A DNA stretch of 64,000 nucleotides from Flavobacteriaceae bacterium (GTDB taxonomy: Bacteria; Bacteroidota; Bacteroidia; Flavobacteriales; Flavobacteriaceae), in the NCBI GenBank assembly GCA_016764435.1, contig JAESRX010000013.1, positions 1 through 64,000 on the forward strand, given 5' to 3'. A program made the translations under genes and the position numbers. The notes beneath the pieces were generated by a model. The model was not told the origin of the DNA, ran no database searches, and worked only from the letters and a program-made list of their open reading frames with translations. Below are positions 2,995 through 61,284 of the stretch, piece by piece (position 1 is the stretch's first letter; each line of letters starts with the position of its first letter).

Positions 2995-3068
2995 CGGTCT
3001 GGACGGGACTCGAACCCGCGACCCCCTGCGTGACAGGCAGGTATTCTAACCAGCTGAACTACCAGACC
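2995..3068 (-). tRNA. tRNA-Asp (GTC)
   Basis: Reverse complement GGTCTGGTAGTTCAGCTGGTTAGAATACCTGCCTGTCACGCAGGGGGTCGCGGGTTCGAGTCCCGTCCAGACCG folds as a cloverleaf; anticodon loop CTGTCAC gives anticodon GTC. Confidence 0.96.
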
Positions 3069-3132
3069 GTTGCTCTTAGCGGTTGCAAACATACGGGGCT
3101 TTCCCCTATCTACAAAGCTTTTTGCCATAAAA

Positions 3133-9692: not shown

Positions 9693-9883
9693 TTAAAATC
9701 TACTTTTATGGTTGTACCAACACCGTTCCTAATGACCGATCTAACTAATTTATTTCACTCCTTTGGTCGTCAAAAAACCGAACAACAGCTATTGCAATTG
9801 GTTGATTTTTCACCTAGAAATAATAAAATTAAGTGGATCTCTAAACAGTTATTTAGAAATTTAGTTGGTATTATTATATCGTT

Positions 9884-9970
9884 TTACGCTTGCGTTAGGG
9901 ATCACAGCGGCATCCTTTTTTTTCTTCAAAAAAAGATACAGCGGAGAGCCCGACCCTTGCGGGAACGCCT
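9884..9970. repeat. GC-rich structured intergenic element (two hairpins) inside the metH 5' region
   Basis: ACGCTTGCGT... CATCCTTTTTTTTTCTTCAAAAAAAGATACAGCGGAGAGCCCGACCCTTGCGGGAACGCC: an atccttttttt/aaaaaaagat hairpin and a GC-rich segment in otherwise AT-rich sequence, lying between the SAM-I aptamer and the metH ORF. Confidence 0.45.
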
Positions 9971-10021
9971 AAAAAAATGGTATCAAAAATGGTGTGGGTT
10001 GATTTTTAAAAAATCGATTGA

Positions 10022-10120
10022 GCTATCTATCCAAAATGGTAGAATGTAGCACCTTCTTTATAAGATAAAGGGTTGCTAAGGCTTCATCGGGTCTAATCCC
10101 TCTGCCTTTCTTGATAACAT
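10022..10120 (-). ncRNA. SAM-I (S-box) riboswitch upstream of the metH operon
   Basis: Minus strand TTATCAAGAAAGGCAGAGGGATTAGACCCGATGAAGCCTTAGCAACCCTTTATCTTATAAAGAAGGTGCTACATTCTACC...GATAGATAG matches the conserved SAM-I core (AGAGGGA, GAUGAAxCCUxxGCAACC, AAGGUGCUAxxUUCUACC). Confidence 0.95.
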
Positions 10121-16934: not shown

Positions 16935-17119
16935 ATTCTATTGGTTGTTGGTTTTTAGTTCGTGATTGTAAGTGTTACGTTTTATCAAAAACTAATACCA
17001 TTTTACTTATTCGTTGTTGTAAATTTCAAGCTCCAAGTTATAAACTGGTAGTATATTCACTCCCCTTTTCACTCTTTGCTTTTTACTAATTCCTTTATTA
17101 TAATTCTAAGTGACACCCT

Positions 17120-17545
17120 TTAAGTTCTAAAAACAAAAGCTCAATACAAACATCAAACTCCCCTTTTCGCTTTTCACTTATCACTAATCCCTCTAGCATA
17201 GTTCTAAAAACAAAAGCTCAATACAAACATTAAACTCCCCTTTTCGCTTTTCGCTTATCACTTATCACTAATCCCTCTAGCATAGTTCTAAAAACAAAAG
17301 CTCAATACAAACATTAAACTCCCCTTTTCGCTTTTCGCTTTTCACTTTTCGCTTGTCACTAATCCCTCTAGCATAGTTCTAAAAACAAAAGCTCAATACA
17401 AACATTAAACTCCCCTTTTCGCTTTTCGCTTGTCACTAATCCCTCTAGCATAGTTCTAAAAACAAAAGCTCAATACTAACATCAAACTCCCCTTTTCGCT
17501 TTTCGCTTATCACTTTTCGCTTTTCACTTATCACTTATCACTCTT
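17120..17545. repeat. nested tandem repeat (about 5 copies of a 76-91 bp unit) between cysD and cysN
   Basis: Unit AGTTCTAAAAACAAAAGCTCAATACAAACATYAAACTCCCCTTTTCGCTTTTCGC(n)TTATCACTAATCCCTCTAGCAT recurs with starts near 17123, 17199, 17283, 17374 and 17451; units differ in number of internal CTTTTCGC/TTATCAC blocks. Confidence 0.9.
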
Positions 17546-24082: not shown

Positions 24083-25378
24083 TTAATCTACTGACACTCC
24101 TATTTTAGAGAAAGCTTCTTTTAAATCCTGTTTTAAATCAGAGATATCCTCCAGTCCTACAGACAACCTAATCAAACCTTTAGTCACTCCAGACTGTACT
24201 TGTTGTTGCTCCGTTAACTGCTGATGGGTAGTACTTGATGGATGAATAATTAAAGATTTTGTATCTCCAATATTTGCTAATAAGGAGAATATTTTTACAG
24301 AATCGACTGTTATTTTAGCAGCTTCAAAACCTCCCTTTACACCAAATGATAAGACACCACTCTGACCATTCGGCAAGTATTTTTTAGTGTTTTTATAAGA
24401 GGCATGACTCTCCAACCCTGGATAACTCACCCAGTCCACTACTTCCTGATCCTCCAACCAATGCGCCAATTCTAAGGCATTTGAGCTGTGTTTCTCTAAA
24501 CGAATTGCCAGTGTTTCCAATCCTTGAATAATCTGAAACGCATTAAAAGGACTCAGCGCTCCACCAAAATCACGCAAGCCCTCCAAACGAACTTTCGCTA
24601 TAAAAGCAGCATCTCCTAAAGCCTCGCTATAAATTAATCCGTGATAGCCCGCAGACGGCTCCGTAAATTCCGGAAATTTACCACTGGTCCAATCAAAATT
24701 CCCACCATCTACAATGGCTCCTCCTAAAGAATTCCCATGTCCTCCAATAAATTTCGTCAAGGAATAAATCACCAGATTTGCCCCGTGTTCTATCGGATTT
24801 AATAAATACGGTGTGGCCACAGTATTGTCTACTAATAATGGAATGTTATTGGTTTTAGAAACACGGGCAATTGCTTCAATATCCAAGACATCCAATGTAG
24901 GATTCCCTATCGATTCAATAAACACTGCCCTGGTATTTTCTTGGATTGCTTTTTGGAAGTTTTCAGGATCAGAGGCATCTACAAAAGTGGTTGTGATCCC
25001 GAATCTGGGTAAGGTAACGTTGAGCAAATTAAAAGTACCTCCGTATAAGGTACGAGAAGCAACAATATGATCCCCTGCTCTTAACAAGGTTAATAAAGCA
25101 GCGGAAATAGCTGCTGTTCCAGAAGCAAAAACCGCGGCTCCTATACCGCCATCCAAGGCCGCTAAACGTTTTTCTAAAATATCATTGGTTGGATTGTTTA
25201 ATCTGGTGTAAATAAAACCCGGTTCTGACAAGCTGAATAAGTCCGCAGCATGCTGGGTATCATTAAAAACATAAGAAGTAGTTTGGTAAATAGGCACGGC
25301 TCTTGTCCCTGCTGTTTCTGAAGTGTCGTGTCCGGCGTGCAATGCTGTTGTTGAAAATTTTTTAGTACTCATAATCAC
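24083..25378 (-). CDS. metY: O-acetylhomoserine aminocarboxypropyltransferase/sulfhydrylase
   Basis: 431 aa; FSTTALHAGHDTSETAGTRAVPIYQTTSYVF, YSLTKFIGGHGNSLGGAIVDGG; likely start MSTKKF at 25372. Confidence 0.94.
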   Translation of the reverse strand: MIMSTKKFSTTALHAGHDTSETAGTRAVPIYQTTSYVFNDTQHAADLFSLSEPGFIYTRLNNPTNDILEKRLAALDGGIGAAVFASGTAAISAALLTLLRAGDHIVASRTLYGGTFNLLNVTLPRFGITTTFVDASDPENFQKAIQENTRAVFIESIGNPTLDVLDIEAIARVSKTNNIPLLVDNTVATPYLLNPIEHGANLVIYSLTKFIGGHGNSLGGAIVDGGNFDWTSGKFPEFTEPSAGYHGLIYSEALGDAAFIAKVRLEGLRDFGGALSPFNAFQIIQGLETLAIRLEKHSSNALELAHWLEDQEVVDWVSYPGLESHASYKNTKKYLPNGQSGVLSFGVKGGFEAAKITVDSVKIFSLLANIGDTKSLIIHPSSTTHQQLTEQQQVQSGVTKGLIRLSVGLEDISDLKQDLKEAFSKIGVSVD

Positions 25379-25714: not shown

Positions 25715-25744
25715 CAAATATAGAAACATTTCCCTTTTCTCCAA
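25715..25744 (-). promoter_or_regulatory. promoter of the leader-metY-metX-thrA operon
   Basis: Minus strand TTG (25742-25744) - N19 - TATATTTG (25715-25722); exact match to TTG/TAnnTTTG consensus, about 20 nt upstream of leader ORF 1. Confidence 0.75.
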
Positions 25745-26650: not shown

Positions 26651-27096
26651 CACGCACATTTTCATATATATTTTATGAGATAAAAGTACATTTTTATAAC
26701 AAATACACCCCACATTTTAGAAATATTAAGCCCCCAATAAATTACTTTGAATTCACCTGAAACAAGTAAGTTTTCGCTTCTTTTTCTGAACAATTCTAGT
26801 AGAACATTAACAGCCTTATGGCAATTTTAACATTTCTTACAATTATTCACAATCAAATTTCTTGACTATTTTACAAAAAGAATAAAAAAACGCAATTTCT
26901 GCTTCTTTTTCTTCTTAAAAATCACCTTTTAACTTACAAAATCAAAAAAACAAGTCCAATTCATAAACGACGAAGTAACACCTATCTATTTACTTCTCCT
27001 AGACTTCCAATCAAATACATCCTCTAAATCTCTATTTTTAACCATTTTATTATATCAGTTTCTATAAATGTTATATCTTTGCATCATCAAATTAAG

Positions 27097-27185
27097 AAGA
27101 GGAAGAATTTGAACTGATTGCAACCTCGTAAAAAAATGCTAAAGCAGTAATTCATTACTCCCTTTAGCCTTTCCTGTACAATCAG
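27097..27185 (+). ncRNA. SAM-II-like riboswitch upstream of metK plus putative expression platform
   Basis: GAGGAAGAATTTGAACTGATTGCAACCTCGTAAAAAAATGCTAAAGC matches the SAM-II pattern (P1 GAGG/CCTC, TGATTGCAACC, AATGCTAAAG); followed by a GCTAAAG...CTTTAGC hairpin. Confidence 0.8.
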
Positions 27186-52743: not shown

Positions 52744-52834
52744 TTAAAAAAGAGAAAACGACGTATAAATAAATATACGCCGCTTTAAATGTTTTCACAA
52801 CGGAATAATCCTTATTGTGAATTGGTTTCAAATT
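52744..52834 (-). ncRNA. tracrRNA
   Basis: Minus strand ACAATTTGAAACCAATTCACAAT (anti-repeat, complementary to the 5' half of the minus-strand repeat GTTGTGAATTGGTTTCAAAATTGT) - AAGGATTATTCC hairpin - AAAGCGGCGTATA/TATACGTCGTTTT stem - CTCTTTTTT. Confidence 0.9.
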
Positions 52835-52839
52835 GTACT

Positions 52840-52847
52840 CAAATATA
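52840..52847 (-). promoter_or_regulatory. -7 box of the tracrRNA promoter
   Basis: TATATTTG on the minus strand, 5 nt before the predicted tracrRNA 5' end. Confidence 0.55.
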
Positions 52848-52925: not shown

Positions 52926-55900
52926 ATGAAAACGATATTAGGACTTGATTTGGGAACAAATTCAATTGGCTGGGCCAATATAAAAATAAACTTCGAAAAA
53001 AAAGAAGGTGAAATAATCAATATCGGAAGTAGGATAATCCCCATGGGTGACTACGCAACATCAAAAACAGGTGGTAGTTCCAAAGACCCTTTAGCCGATT
53101 TCTCAAGAGGTGTTGGGCTCTCCAAAACTAAAATAAAGACACAACATCGTAGTACTAGAAATCTTTATCAAAAAGACAATTTAAGAAGAGAACGCCTACA
53201 TCGCGTGTTAAATATTCTCGATTTTTTACCAAAGCATTATGCAGAATCTATCGATTTCACAAAAAAACTGGGACAATTTAAAAAAGGAAAAGAGATAAAA
53301 TTAAACTACCGTCCAGTAGAGAACGGAAAAGACCAATTCATTTTTATGGATTCTTTTTTAGAAATGGTTGCAGAATTTAAAATAGCACAACCACAACTAT
53401 TCTATCAAAAGGCAAATGGCAACGAAACAAAAATCCCCTACGACTGGACTCTTTATTATTTACGTAAAAAATCCTTAACTCAAAAAATAAGTAAAGAAGA
53501 GTTGGCATGGCTACTCTTAAATTTTAACCAAAAAAGAGGGTATTACCAACTTAGAGGAGAAGAACAGGAGAACGACACAAAACAAGAAGAATTTCATTCC
53601 CTCAAAGTAATTAATGTTGAGGCCACTGAAGACAAAAACGCAAAAGGTATTTGGTACAACGTTATCCTAGAAAATAATTTAATCTACAGAAGACAAAGTA
53701 AAGAACCATTAAGTAGTTGGATAGGACAACAAAAGGAATTTATAATAACTACTAACTTAGAAAAAGATGGATTTCCTAAAAAAGACAAAGAAGGAAACAT
53801 AAAACGTAGTTTCAGAGCTGTTGATTCCGAAAAGGATTGGATTGCAATTAAGAAAAAAACAGAGCAAGACATCGCACAATCAAAAAAAACAGTAGGCACC
53901 TTTATCTATGACACTTTACTGCAAAATCCTAGTCAAAAAATAAACGGGAAACTAGTAAAAACAATTGAGCGTAAATTATACAAAAAGGAATTAAATCTAA
54001 TTTTAGAAACACAATTAGCAAAACATAACGAGTTAACTGACAGTAATAGCTACAACGCTTGTATTGAGGAATTATACCCAAGAAATGAAGCACACCTAAA
54101 TACGCTTAAAGAAAAAAGTTTTCTTCATCTTTTTATGGAAGACATCATCTTCTATCAAAGACCATTAAAAAGTAAAAAATCTACAATCTCCAATTGTGCA
54201 TATGAGAGCAGGACCTATTATTTAAAAAATAAAGAAACCAAGGTTCGTGAAAAGATTACGGAAGGCTTAAAGGTTATTTCTAAATCAAACCCGCTTTTTA
54301 ACGAATTTAGATTGTGGCAGTTTCTAAAAAATTTAAAAATATATCAACTTCAAGATGAAAAGGATATTGAAATTACTTCACAGTGTATAGGAAATGACGA
54401 AGACTGGTGTAATTTGTTTGACTTTTTAAACAAGAGAAAAGAAGTAGAACAAAAACATATTATTGATTTTTTGATAAAAGAAGGTAAACTCAGTAAAAAA
54501 GAAAAACCAAATTACCGTTGGAATTACCCTGAGGATAAAAAGTATCCAATTAATGAAACCCGCTCACAATTTTTAAGACGACTCGCAAAAGTTGAGCAGA
54601 TAGACCCTTTACAGTTCTTAACGAAAGAAAAGGAATATGCTTTATGGCATCTCATCTATTCTGTTAAAGACAAAAAGGAATATGAACAAGCGTTGCATAC
54701 TTTTGCTAGAAAAAACAACCTTGACATAGTATCTTTCGTAACTGCGTTTTTAAAACATCCACCATACAGTGCTGACTATGGTTCTTATTCAGAAAAAGCA
54801 ATAAAAAAACTACTCCCACTTATGCGAATGGGTAAGTATTGGGAAGAAAAGGAACTTGATACAGTAGTTAAAAACAGAATATTATCAATTTTTGAACGCA
54901 TCGAACATATTAATTTAGACAAAACACCAAGTTCAAGAGACGAAGAAACTGCTTTAAAAGAGGCTATCATTGCAGTTGCAGATGACGACATTCCTAAACA
55001 ATTAATTAAAAGTTTTTTAAACCTAAGTAAAAGTGATGCATTAAAAGGATTGAACACCTACCAAGCCTGCTATGCAGTTTATGAAAGACATGCAGAAGTG
55101 AGTGAAATTACACAATGGAAAACACCTAAAGATATAGATTTTTACCTCAGTAACTTTAAACAACATAGTTTAAGAAACCCAATAGTGGAACAAGTAGTTA
55201 CAGAAACCCTACGTACCGTACGTGATATCTGGCAACAATCGTTAGAGAAGGACCCTCGTTTTAAATTTGACGAGATTCATGTGGAATTAGGGCGTGATAT
55301 GAAAAACTCCGCAGAAAAACGAAAAAGGATAAGCGAACGTCAAACCAGTAATGAAAACACAAACGCACGTATTAAGTTACTCTTAGAAGAATTAAAGAAT
55401 GATTATACATCCGTAGACATACGCCCCTACTCTCCAAGTCACCAAGAAATACTTAAAATATACGAAGAAGGTGTCGCACAGAACCCACTTGTATCCTATG
55501 CGAAACTAAATGAAGACGAAATATTAAAAATCAGGAAAAATGCAAAACCTACAAGTAACGAAATTAAAAAATACAAGCTTTGGCTGGAGCAAAATTACAT
55601 TTCACCATATACAGGAAACCCCATCCCTTTAAGTAAGCTGTTTACCCATGCCTACGAAATTGAACACATTATACCTCAATCTCGTTTCTTTGATGATTCC
55701 TTAAATAATAAAATTATATGTGAATCTGATATTAACCGAGATAAAAGTAATAGAACCGCATACGAATACCTCAAAGACAAAGGAGGAAGTAAGATAGAAG
55801 GTTTTGATCTATTAACACTCTCAGCATACGAAAACCACTGTAATAAATACTTTAAAAAAAATAGGACAAAGCTTAAAAATCTATTAAGTGAAGAGGTTCC

Positions 55901-57661
55901 GGAAGGGTTTATTCAACGTCAAATGAACGATAGTCGCTATATTAGTAAATTAATAAAAGGGCTCTTGAGTAATATTGTACGTGAAGAAGGGGAAAAGGAA
56001 GCAACCGCTAAAAACTTATTACCCGTTAATGGTGCGGTTACCTCTAGACTTAAACAAGATTGGGGATTAAATGAACAATGGAACGAAATTATTAGACCGC
56101 GTTTCGAACGTATGAACGAAATTTCCAATTCTCAAGATTACGGGTATATGGACTCCGTAAAAGATGTAGACGGAAAGCCTACTGGTAAAAAATTCTTTCG
56201 ATTGATAGCCCCAGAAGGCCTTAACAAAAAACGTATTGACCATAGACACCATACATTGGATGCCATAATTATTGCATGTTGTACCAGAAAACACATCCAA
56301 TATTTAAATGCTTTAAATAACGATAAGGTAAAGTATGCTTTACAAGACTCTTTAAGAAATAGCAAAGAAATTCAAGCTAAAAACAAAAAAGGTGTTCTCG
56401 TAACAAAAACCGTCGCTACAGACTATAAAAAACCTTGGGCCAATTTCCCTGTTGTGGTTAAAAATGCTCTTGAAAAAGTAATAGTTAGTTTTAAACAAAA
56501 CACGCGTGTTATAAACAAAACTAACAACAAAACATGGCAATGGGTAAGCGATAAAGACGGAAAACTACAAAAGAAACGCGTAAAACAAACCAAAGGTGAT
56601 AACTGGGCCATTCGTAAGCCTTTACATAAAGAAACAGTCTATGGTAGTGTGCGTATAAAAAAAGAAAAAAAAGGAGTCTCTAGTTTAACATTATATTTAG
56701 ACAAACCTGAACTTATTATAGACAAGAAAATTCGCAAGAAAGTAAAGGCGCTGAACAGCCTATTTGACAAAGATAAGAAGAAAATAGCCTCCTATTTAAA
56801 GAATAACACCTTCGAAATTAACGGTGAAAAAATTGACAAAATAAAAGTTTGGGAATGGACTAAAAACGCGACGGCAACACGTACCGTTTTGAGCGAAAAA
56901 TTAACACGCAAACAACTAGATGCAATCACAGACAGCGGCATTCAACAAATTTTAGAACAACACCTTAAAAATTACCATGACGAAAACAATAAAGAACGCT
57001 TAGATTTAGCCTTTAACATAGAAGGACTTGATGTTATGAATAAAAACATAACACAATTAAATAACGGAAAAAAACACCAACCTATTAAATCCGTACGTAT
57101 TTATGAAGATGGTAGTAGATTTACCGTTTCCCAGAAAGAAAATAAAGGGAACAAAACCACAAAATATGTTGAAGCTGCTACAGGCACCAACTTATTCTTT
57201 GCTATCTATTGGAACATAGAAAAGAAACAACGTGTCTATGAAACCATTCCACTTCATGAAGTAATTGAATGGCAGAAACAACGTGCTGAGAACAAAGAAT
57301 ACCAACTCCCTTTAATTCCAATTAACCACAGTAAAGGTGAATTCTTATTTTACCTTTCTCCAAATGATTTGGTGTATGTACCAACAGAAGAAGAAATTAA
57401 TAACCCTACGCTAGTAAATATAAAAAACATATCTAAAGAACAAGCAGGGAGGATTTATAAAATGGTGAGTAGTACAGGAAACGAATGTCACTTTATCAAT
57501 GACAGAGTTTCATCATTAATTAAGAAATATGATACTAAATCAAAAACAGGTGAATATGGTAGTTTAAATAAATCCGAAAAAACAATAAACAAAATACTAA
57601 TTAAAAAAACATGCTGGAAATTACAACTAGATAGAATAGGAAATATTAAAAACGCCATCAC

Positions 57662-57686
<25 letters not shown>
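52926..57686 (+). CDS. cas9: CRISPR-associated endonuclease Cas9 (type II-C)
   Basis: About 1586 aa from ATG at 52926 (track uses an upstream TTG); RuvC-I ILGLDLGTNSIGWA, RuvC-II IHVELGRD, HNH YEIEHIIPQSRFFDDSLNNKIICESDINRDKSNRTAYEY, RuvC-III DHRHHTLDAIIIACC. Confidence 0.98.
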
Positions 57687-58895
<1,209 letters not shown>

Positions 58896-58954
58896 GATCG
58901 AAAAAAAGCATCTTAAAGGGAGAAAAACTTCGTTTATCCCTGTATTTTATACTT

Positions 58955-59003
58955 TCTAAAAAACAATCCCGAAGCCTTAGTATCACTAAGAATTCGGGAT
59001 TGA
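58955..59003 (-). terminator. intrinsic terminator at the cas2-side end of the CRISPR array (minus-strand transcript)
   Basis: Minus strand AATCCCGAATTCTTAG-TGATA-CTAAGGCTTCGGGATT followed by GTTTTTT; no T-run on the plus strand. Confidence 0.75.
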
Positions 59004-59004
59004 C

Positions 59005-61284
59005 CCTGTGATTGCTCACATAAAAATACAATTTTGAAACCAATTCACAACCGTCGTTGCCTGTGCAAATATCATATACTTCCTGTGATTGCTCACATAA
59101 AAATACAATTTTGAAACCAATTCACAACTTACCTGACTTAGTGAATATCTCGTATTCCCCTGTGATTGCTCACATAAAAATACAATTTTGAAACCAATTC
59201 ACAACTCTTGCCTCTCTAGGTACTAATACTCCTTGCCTGTGATTGCTCACATAAAAATACAATTTTGAAACCAATTCACAACGAATTTATCAACATCAAA
59301 CATTAATGTCTCCCTGTGATTGCTCACATAAAAATACAATTTTGAAACCAATTCACAACTGGAGAGAGAATGTTTCTCAATCTCGTTATCCTGTGATTGC
59401 TCACATAAAAATACAATTTTGAAACCAATTCACAACTATAACACAAGTCACCTTTCAAAGCAACCTCCTGTGATTGCTCACATAAAAATACAATTTTGAA
59501 ACCAATTCACAACTTGCTGGGGTTGTTGGTTCTTCCAACAATTCCTGTGATTGCTCACATAAAAATACAATTTTGAAACCAATTCACAACTGAAAACAAT
59601 GACAATAAAACTTCGACAATCCTGTGATTGCTCACATAAAAATACAATTTTGAAACCAATTCACAACTGACATGTGGCTAGAGATGGAAATAATCAACCT
59701 GTGATTGCTCACATAAAAATACAATTTTGAAACCAATTCACAACTCTAAGCCTTCGTTTTCATCAGTTAGATTACCTGTGATTGCTCACATAAAAATACA
59801 ATTTTGAAACCAATTCACAACCATCCATCAGATCAAATGTACGATCAAAATCCTGTGATTGCTCACATAAAAATACAATTTTGAAACCAATTCACAACAG
59901 TATTTAAACTAATAGCCGTATTCTGAACCCTGTGATTGCTCACATAAAAATACAATTTTGAAACCAATTCACAACAGATCACACATTCAGGTACGGGGGC
60001 TGGGGCCTGTGATTGCTCACATAAAAATACAATTTTGAAACCAATTCACAACCGAGCGGAGGTCGTTACATTGTTATTGTTGCCTGTGATTGCTCACATA
60101 AAAATACAATTTTGAAACCAATTCACAACTGCCAAATGACAGCGATATAACAGATGTCACCTGTGATTGCTCACATAAAAATACAATTTTGAAACCAATT
60201 CACAACTTTCCGTCAACGCTAAATAGTTGTCCCAAACCTGTGATTGCTCACATAAAAATACAATTTTGAAACCAATTCACAACTAGAATGATTACCTCTA
60301 GCTCTATTATGCCCCTGTGATTGCTCACATAAAAATACAATTTTGAAACCAATTCACAACGTGGCGTTGTTGTTAAAATAATCAAATGGGCCTGTGATTG
60401 CTCACATAAAAATACAATTTTGAAACCAATTCACAACCCAAGGTCGGTTCAATAGATAATACCGATGCCTGTGATTGCTCACATAAAAATACAATTTTGA
60501 AACCAATTCACAACTATTCTTAATATAAGCGTATGTCTTTCTTGCCTGTGATTGCTCACATAAAAATACAATTTTGAAACCAATTCACAACGAACACCTA
60601 CTTGTCCACCCGCGTCGAAGCCCTGTGATTGCTCACATAAAAATACAATTTTGAAACCAATTCACAACCAATATCCAAGCACTTATCCAATGTGCTTCCC
60701 TGTGATTGCTCACATAAAAATACAATTTTGAAACCAATTCACAACTATCTTTCGGCTGTTCCGGCTGTTCCATATCCTGTGATTGCTCACATAAAAATAC
60801 AATTTTGAAACCAATTCACAACCGTCAGCATCCCACATTGTGGTGTTTACGTCCTGTGATTGCTCACATAAAAATACAATTTTGAAACCAATTCACAACA
60901 TACTTCTCTTTATGGTTAAACTGACATTACCTGTGATTGCTCACATAAAAATACAATTTTGAAACCAATTCACAACCCTATTGACTTCTTGTAATGCCTT
61001 ACATCACCTGTGATTGCTCACATAAAAATACAATTTTGAAACCAATTCACAACCATATTATAGTAAGGTTTAATTCATCCCTTCCTGTGATTGCTCACAT
61101 AAAAATACAATTTTGAAACCAATTCACAACCCAACAACGATTTTACCAGAACGCACATCACCTGTGATTGCTCACATAAAAATACAATTTTGAAACCAAT
61201 TCACAACAAGTTCCGTTACACTTTTGATTAAACATTTCCTGTGATTGCTCACATAAAAATACAATTTTGAAACCAATTCACAAC
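59005..61284 (-). CRISPR. CRISPR array, type II-C: 30 repeats of 47 bp, 29 spacers of 30 bp
   Basis: Plus-strand repeat CCTGTGATTGCTCACATAAAAATACAATTTTGAAACCAATTCACAAC repeats with an exact 77-bp period from 59005 to 61238; first and last copies are identical to consensus. Orientation assigned from tracrRNA complementarity and terminator. Confidence 0.99.

Follow-up and report, generated by a model that had tools for sequence, protein, structure and literature searches.

A putative promoter in each 47-bp repeat of a Flavobacteriaceae type II-C CRISPR array

We found that each repeat of a type II-C CRISPR array from a Flavobacteriaceae bacterium is likely to act as a promoter for the housekeeping sigma factor of Bacteroidota, a reading to which we assign a probability of roughly 85% from sequence comparison. 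The array lies in a window of 64,000 nt (GenBank assembly GCA_016764435.1, contig JAESRX010000013.1, positions 1–64,000), and a promoter in each repeat had been suggested by an earlier, sequence-only reading of it. That suggestion is very probably right, given that the Bacteroidota -7 box ranked first among 4096 patterns, favors the crRNA strand, recurs in held-out arrays and is kept in decayed first repeats. The box, its place and conservation, the polarity of the array, the tracrRNA gene with its own -7 box and the terminator can all be read directly from the DNA.

The locus and the candidate box

The locus is a type II-C CRISPR-Cas system, with only cas9, cas1 and cas2 plus a tracrRNA near cas9; neither csn2 nor cas4 was found in the operon (Table 1). 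The tracrRNA gene is divergent and lies before cas9, running from about 52835 to 52742, with a strong hairpin and a run of T at its end. A crRNA of a type II system retains the 5′ portion of its repeat. Because the anti-repeat pairs with this portion, the crRNA sense of the array is the minus strand, toward cas2. The array has a period of 77 bp, every one of the 29 spacers is exactly 30 bp long, and the genome encodes RNase III.

Table 1. Features of the CRISPR-Cas locus, with positions in the 64,000-nt window.
Feature	Position	Strand	Remarks
tracrRNA anti-repeat	52815–52837	-	pairs with repeat positions 2–25
tracrRNA promoter -7 box, TATATTTG	52840–52847	-	8/8 match
cas9	52926–57686	+	type II, 1586 aa; locus 5′ of array
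cas1	57662–58552	+	type II, NMENI model
cas2	58554–58895	+	
cas2-array intergenic region, putative AT-rich leader and spacer-acquisition end	58896–59004		analogy to Riemerella anatipestifer (PMC6008519); intact last and decayed first repeats
Intrinsic terminator of crRNA-sense transcripts	58958–59002	-	six T behind a 39-nt hairpin; immediately follows last repeat
CRISPR array	59005–61284	- (crRNA sense)	30 identical 47-bp repeats, 29 spacers of 30 bp
Predicted transcription start, first repeat	61248–61249	-	repeat position 36–37 (A or G); from 4–5 nt spacing (PMC6847099); recurs every 77 bp
-7 box TATTTTTA, first repeat (61238–61284)	61254–61261	-	place conserved across Bacteroidota repeats
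TTG, proposed -33 element	61281–61283	-	repeat positions 2–4; recurs every 77 bp; weak evidence

Read in the crRNA sense, the repeat is GTTGTGAATTGGTTTCAAAATTGTATTTTTATGTGAGCAATCACAGG. As the sequence-only reading had stated, all 30 copies have TTG at positions 2–4, then N19 and TATTTTTA at 24–31, with the box recurring each 77 bp down to its furthest copy at 59021–59028. Against the Bacteroidota consensus TAnnTTTG, this is a 7/8 match if the two free positions are counted, or 5/6 of the specified letters, the exception being the final letter (A). The same N19 spacing had been claimed for the metY promoter, and we confirmed it: the metY-like ORF at 24083–25378 (minus strand) is preceded by TTG-N19-TATATTTG at 25715–25744 (minus strand). 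A tRNA at 2995–3068 (minus strand) likewise has TTG-N19-TATGTTTG at 3086–3115. Other RNA elements in the window are a Flavo-1 RNA (9882–9959), a SAM (S-box) riboswitch (10020–10120) and a SAM-II riboswitch before metK (27093–27152).

Equally good matches occur outside the array at 0.14 per kb per strand of the window, and among shuffled copies of the repeat their rate is 1.3% at N19 and 7.8% at N17–23. With all 30 copies identical, the array counts as a single observation; the motif by itself is thus only moderately improbable, and it is comparison with other repeats that gives it significance. Sigma-70 promoters inside the array were at chance level (11 found, 11.3 expected). The repeats of 46–47 bp (e.g., 61238–61284) also have terminal inverted repeats, with 6.6 of 10 end bases complementary versus 2.8 when shuffled; these are weaker in short 36-bp repeats (4.3 of 10), and the extra 11 bp of the long repeats may have a role in Cas1-Cas2 symmetry. 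Elsewhere in the window, 17104–17482 holds five 50-bp direct repeats with loose, irregular spacing.

Conservation across Bacteroidota and other phyla

Arrays were extracted from about 120 Bacteroidota cas9 loci (two genome samples plus four relatives), which after script detection and orientation gave 99 arrays with 85 distinct repeats. All 4096 patterns of the form XXnnXXXX were scored at N16–N23 after TTG, with similar repeats down-weighted and dinucleotide shuffles as the expectation. Of the long-repeat arrays, all 61 for which a cas9 was recognised (the window's included) run opposite to their cas genes; 14 short-repeat arrays, all from a single family, run in the same orientation.

TAnnTTTG ranked 1 of 4096. 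At least 5/6 letters were present in 75% (weighted) of the opposite-sense repeats versus 17% of dinucleotide shuffles and, counting long repeats only, in 81% versus an expected 19±8%; the full 6/6 was found in 29% of long repeats (2% expected). The box is also strand-specific, with 84% (at least 5/6) and 24% (6/6) in the sense orientation versus 32% and 0% in antisense. Its most frequent distance from TTG was N19, followed by N21. The same-sense arrays showed no box enrichment (11% versus 5% expected), a control that is weak by itself as these repeats form one sequence cluster with an effective number of 1. In Sediminicola luteus, a cultured member of the Flavobacteriaceae with repeats of 46–47 bp, the box is TAATTTTA. 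Six same-sense Flavobacteriaceae arrays that lack the repeat box (L052, L087, L092, L093, L143, L154) have a conserved leader, GTTCTTTGACAT...CAAACCACAAC..., before repeat 1, the final part of which is complementary to the repeat start; it looks like a leader promoter with a leader-repeat hairpin, as in type II-A.

The last letters of the box vary. Among 55 TAnnTT matches in repeats, 31 ended in TTTA, 11 in TTTG and 10 in TTAG. Promoters of Flavobacterium johnsoniae almost always have G at -5 (PMC6847099), so the strength of a promoter whose box ends in A, as here, is uncertain. The tracrRNA promoters, which must work, provide a reference: at a fixed place before the anti-repeat in 62 loci we counted TAnnTTTG 23 times, TAnnTTTA 14, TAnnTTAG 4 and TAnnTTCG 3, with 0–1 of these variants on the other strand. 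These lineages thus seem to use a TTTA box. One possible reason for its dominance in repeats is that a promoter occurring 30 times over has been weakened.

Further type II-C arrays, from Bacteroidota and from other phyla, were taken from plasmid records fetched after the patterns had been ranked. All three held-out Bacteroidota arrays have the box: TATCTTTG exactly at 24–31 in Phocaeicola massiliensis and Prevotella nigrescens, and TACCTTTC in Persicobacter. The published repeat of Prevotella intermedia (PMC5608340), read in the crRNA sense, also has TTG at 2–4 and TATCTTTG at 24–31. All six non-Bacteroidota repeats (Ilyobacter, Tistrella, Azospirillum, Limnohabitans, Pigmentibacter, Subdoligranulum) have TAnnnT at 31–36, where Campylobacter has its -10 box; the Bacteroidota box reaches 5/6 letters in just one of the six. 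TAnnnT was found in only 6% of long Bacteroidota repeats, and in most short Bacteroidota repeats without the -7 box, positions 31–36 read TACATT or TAGATT. About 16% (weighted) of long repeats have neither box type. On these sequences, we lean slightly toward the view that type II-C repeats are rewritten to suit the housekeeping sigma factor of each phylum, with TAnnTTTR mid-repeat in Bacteroidota and TAnnnT at the repeat end elsewhere.

Array ends and alternative readings

Opposite-sense long-repeat arrays often have a decayed first repeat (at the crRNA 5′ end, distal to cas2), and their last repeat is nearly always intact. At least two changes in positions 1–18 were found in 30 of 48 first repeats; 27 of these 30 keep the full box score, and TTG at 2–4 survives in a single one. 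This agrees with a report that extra repeats in II-C arrays decay in their first 15 nt (Feussner 2025, PMC12080349), and it fits a promoter that still serves the first spacer once the tracrRNA-pairing half is dispensable. Positions 37–46, which a promoter does not need, are retained too, so retention in first repeats is not box-specific. The window's own first repeat is intact and hence uninformative on decay. The TTG, which the sequence-only reading had counted as promoter evidence, fares worse: as it is lost in 29/30 decayed first repeats and conserved at 2–4 in same-sense arrays without the box, it is not diagnostic of a promoter, and its presence near -33 is confounded by tracrRNA pairing.

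We searched for the box upstream of the first repeats in 65 opposite-sense arrays and found no enrichment (9% versus 9% antisense), so a leader promoter as the array start was rejected; the 200 nt upstream of the window's array likewise lack a 6/6 -7 box. The repeat promoter had been offered as an explanation for a missing leader, but position, array polarity and the analogy to Riemerella anatipestifer, where new spacers join beside cas2 (PMC6008519), place an AT-rich leader in the gap that separates the array from cas2, where transcripts would have their 3′ ends. This region holds the terminator, whose predicted fold has a free energy of -21.8 kcal/mol (z -5.7). In the wider array set, terminator-like hairpins were found in 49% of sense versus 29% of antisense flanks.

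If the repeats were not promoters, the array could be transcribed from a single outside promoter at its cas2-distal end; RNase III and tracrRNA would then process all crRNAs out of one long precursor, and the box would be incidental. The parts for this are present, as RNase III and a tracrRNA with an anti-repeat are both encoded, and the repeat box is imperfect (7/8). We nevertheless consider it unlikely, given the upstream results above and that it leaves the conservation of the box, its switch between phyla and its retention in first repeats unexplained. A coincidental match in an AT-rich repeat is hardly credible: shuffled copies match equally well at N17–23 often enough to allow it for one repeat, but the top rank over many distinct repeats and the 3/3 held-out arrays strongly disfavor it.

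It is also very improbable that letters 24–31 are conserved as a DNA or RNA palindrome, for Cas1-Cas2 or as a hairpin, and not as a promoter. Inverted arms do flank the box in some Flavobacteriaceae repeats, such as ATACTA-TCT-TAGTAT in L111; arms of 5–6 nt were seen in L111, L138, L151, L152 and L162, and were absent in most others. Overall, arms of at least 4 nt were no more frequent than in shuffles (13% versus 16%), and 70% of arm-less repeats still have the box. A palindrome would also not predict fixed letters at 28–29 with variable letters at 26–27, nor an element that switches with the sigma factor of the phylum. Pairing with tracrRNA was rejected as the cause of box conservation, as it ends near position 17–27 in most long repeats and so is mostly over before position 28.

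Proposed transcription and relation to known systems

Under the repeat-promoter reading, RNA polymerase carrying sigma-A, the housekeeping sigma factor, would bind TAnnTTTR, the -7 box at positions 24–31 of the repeat. In F. johnsoniae promoters, 4–5 nt separate the box from the start (Baez 2019, PMC6847099), so the expected start is at 36–37, 11–12 nt ahead of the spacer, and not near 38–40 as had been proposed. Each transcript would begin with a short 5′ tag from the repeat, continue through the spacer and include the 5′ half of the following repeat, where positions 2–25 would pair with tracrRNA. As the repeat itself contains no terminator, transcripts would continue past it toward cas2, against the cas genes, until the hairpin at 58958–59002 stops them before cas2. 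RNase III acting on the tracrRNA duplex probably cuts the 3′ ends, and the 5′ ends would be trimmed. Initiation, the start position, cutting and trimming are what we infer from the elements described above.

Promoters embedded in repeats are established for Neisseria and Campylobacter, and to our knowledge RNase III is dispensable only in Neisseria. The sequence-only reading had attributed RNase III-independent crRNAs to both; this is correct for Neisseria but not for Campylobacter, where crRNA 3′ ends depend on RNase III (PMC3656092). Nor does such independence follow for the present array, as RNase III is encoded and the repeat has no terminator. The locus resembles that of Neisseria meningitidis in its cas9-cas1-cas2 operon, an array opposite to the cas genes and, on our reading, a promoter per repeat. 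The N. meningitidis repeats are 36 bp long and have a sigma-70 extended -10 promoter at their 3′ end, whereas the window has a Bacteroidota -7 box mid-repeat and a predicted start inside a 47-bp repeat. Campylobacter jejuni (Dugar 2013, PMC3656092) shares the gene set, the tracrRNA and, again on our reading, promoters in individual repeats, but its -10 box, GGTAAAAT, lies where the repeat ends, and transcription starts at spacer position 5. The arrangement here is a phylum-specific variant of a known one.

The idea of repeat promoters in Bacteroidota is not new. For Flavobacterium columnare, one was proposed from TTG plus only eight RNA-seq reads (Hoikkala 2021, PMC8092290), and a 2023 paper on F. 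psychrophilum proposed one again from TTG (PMC10309648). These type II-C systems share the phylum and transcripts directed toward the variable end with ours, but F. columnare has 36-bp repeats (PMC8092290), and neither paper described a -7 box in the repeat. CRISPR1 of R. anatipestifer is alike in form, with 47-bp repeats, 30-bp spacers and an anti-repeat upstream of cas9 (PMC5006608, PMC6008519); there a promoter in the repeats was denied using the BDGP tool, which was not made for this sigma factor (PMC5006608). In the literature searched, with most subscription journals outside the search, we found no report of the -7 box in Bacteroidota repeats or of a phylum-wide pattern, and no transcription start map of a Bacteroidota type II-C array.

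The result provides a concrete and testable rule for guide RNA production in Bacteroidota Cas9 loci, with a diagnostic -7 box in place of the weak published TTG cue, and it speaks against the view, published for Riemerella-type repeats of 47 bp, that they are promoter-less. If this is true, primary crRNAs from 47-bp Bacteroidota repeats would carry an 11–12 nt repeat-derived 5′ tag. It also suggests that the sigma factor preference of the host shapes CRISPR repeats and may restrict their spread across phyla; should repeats indeed be rewritten for each phylum, promoter compatibility would limit the transfer of type II-C immune loci between them.
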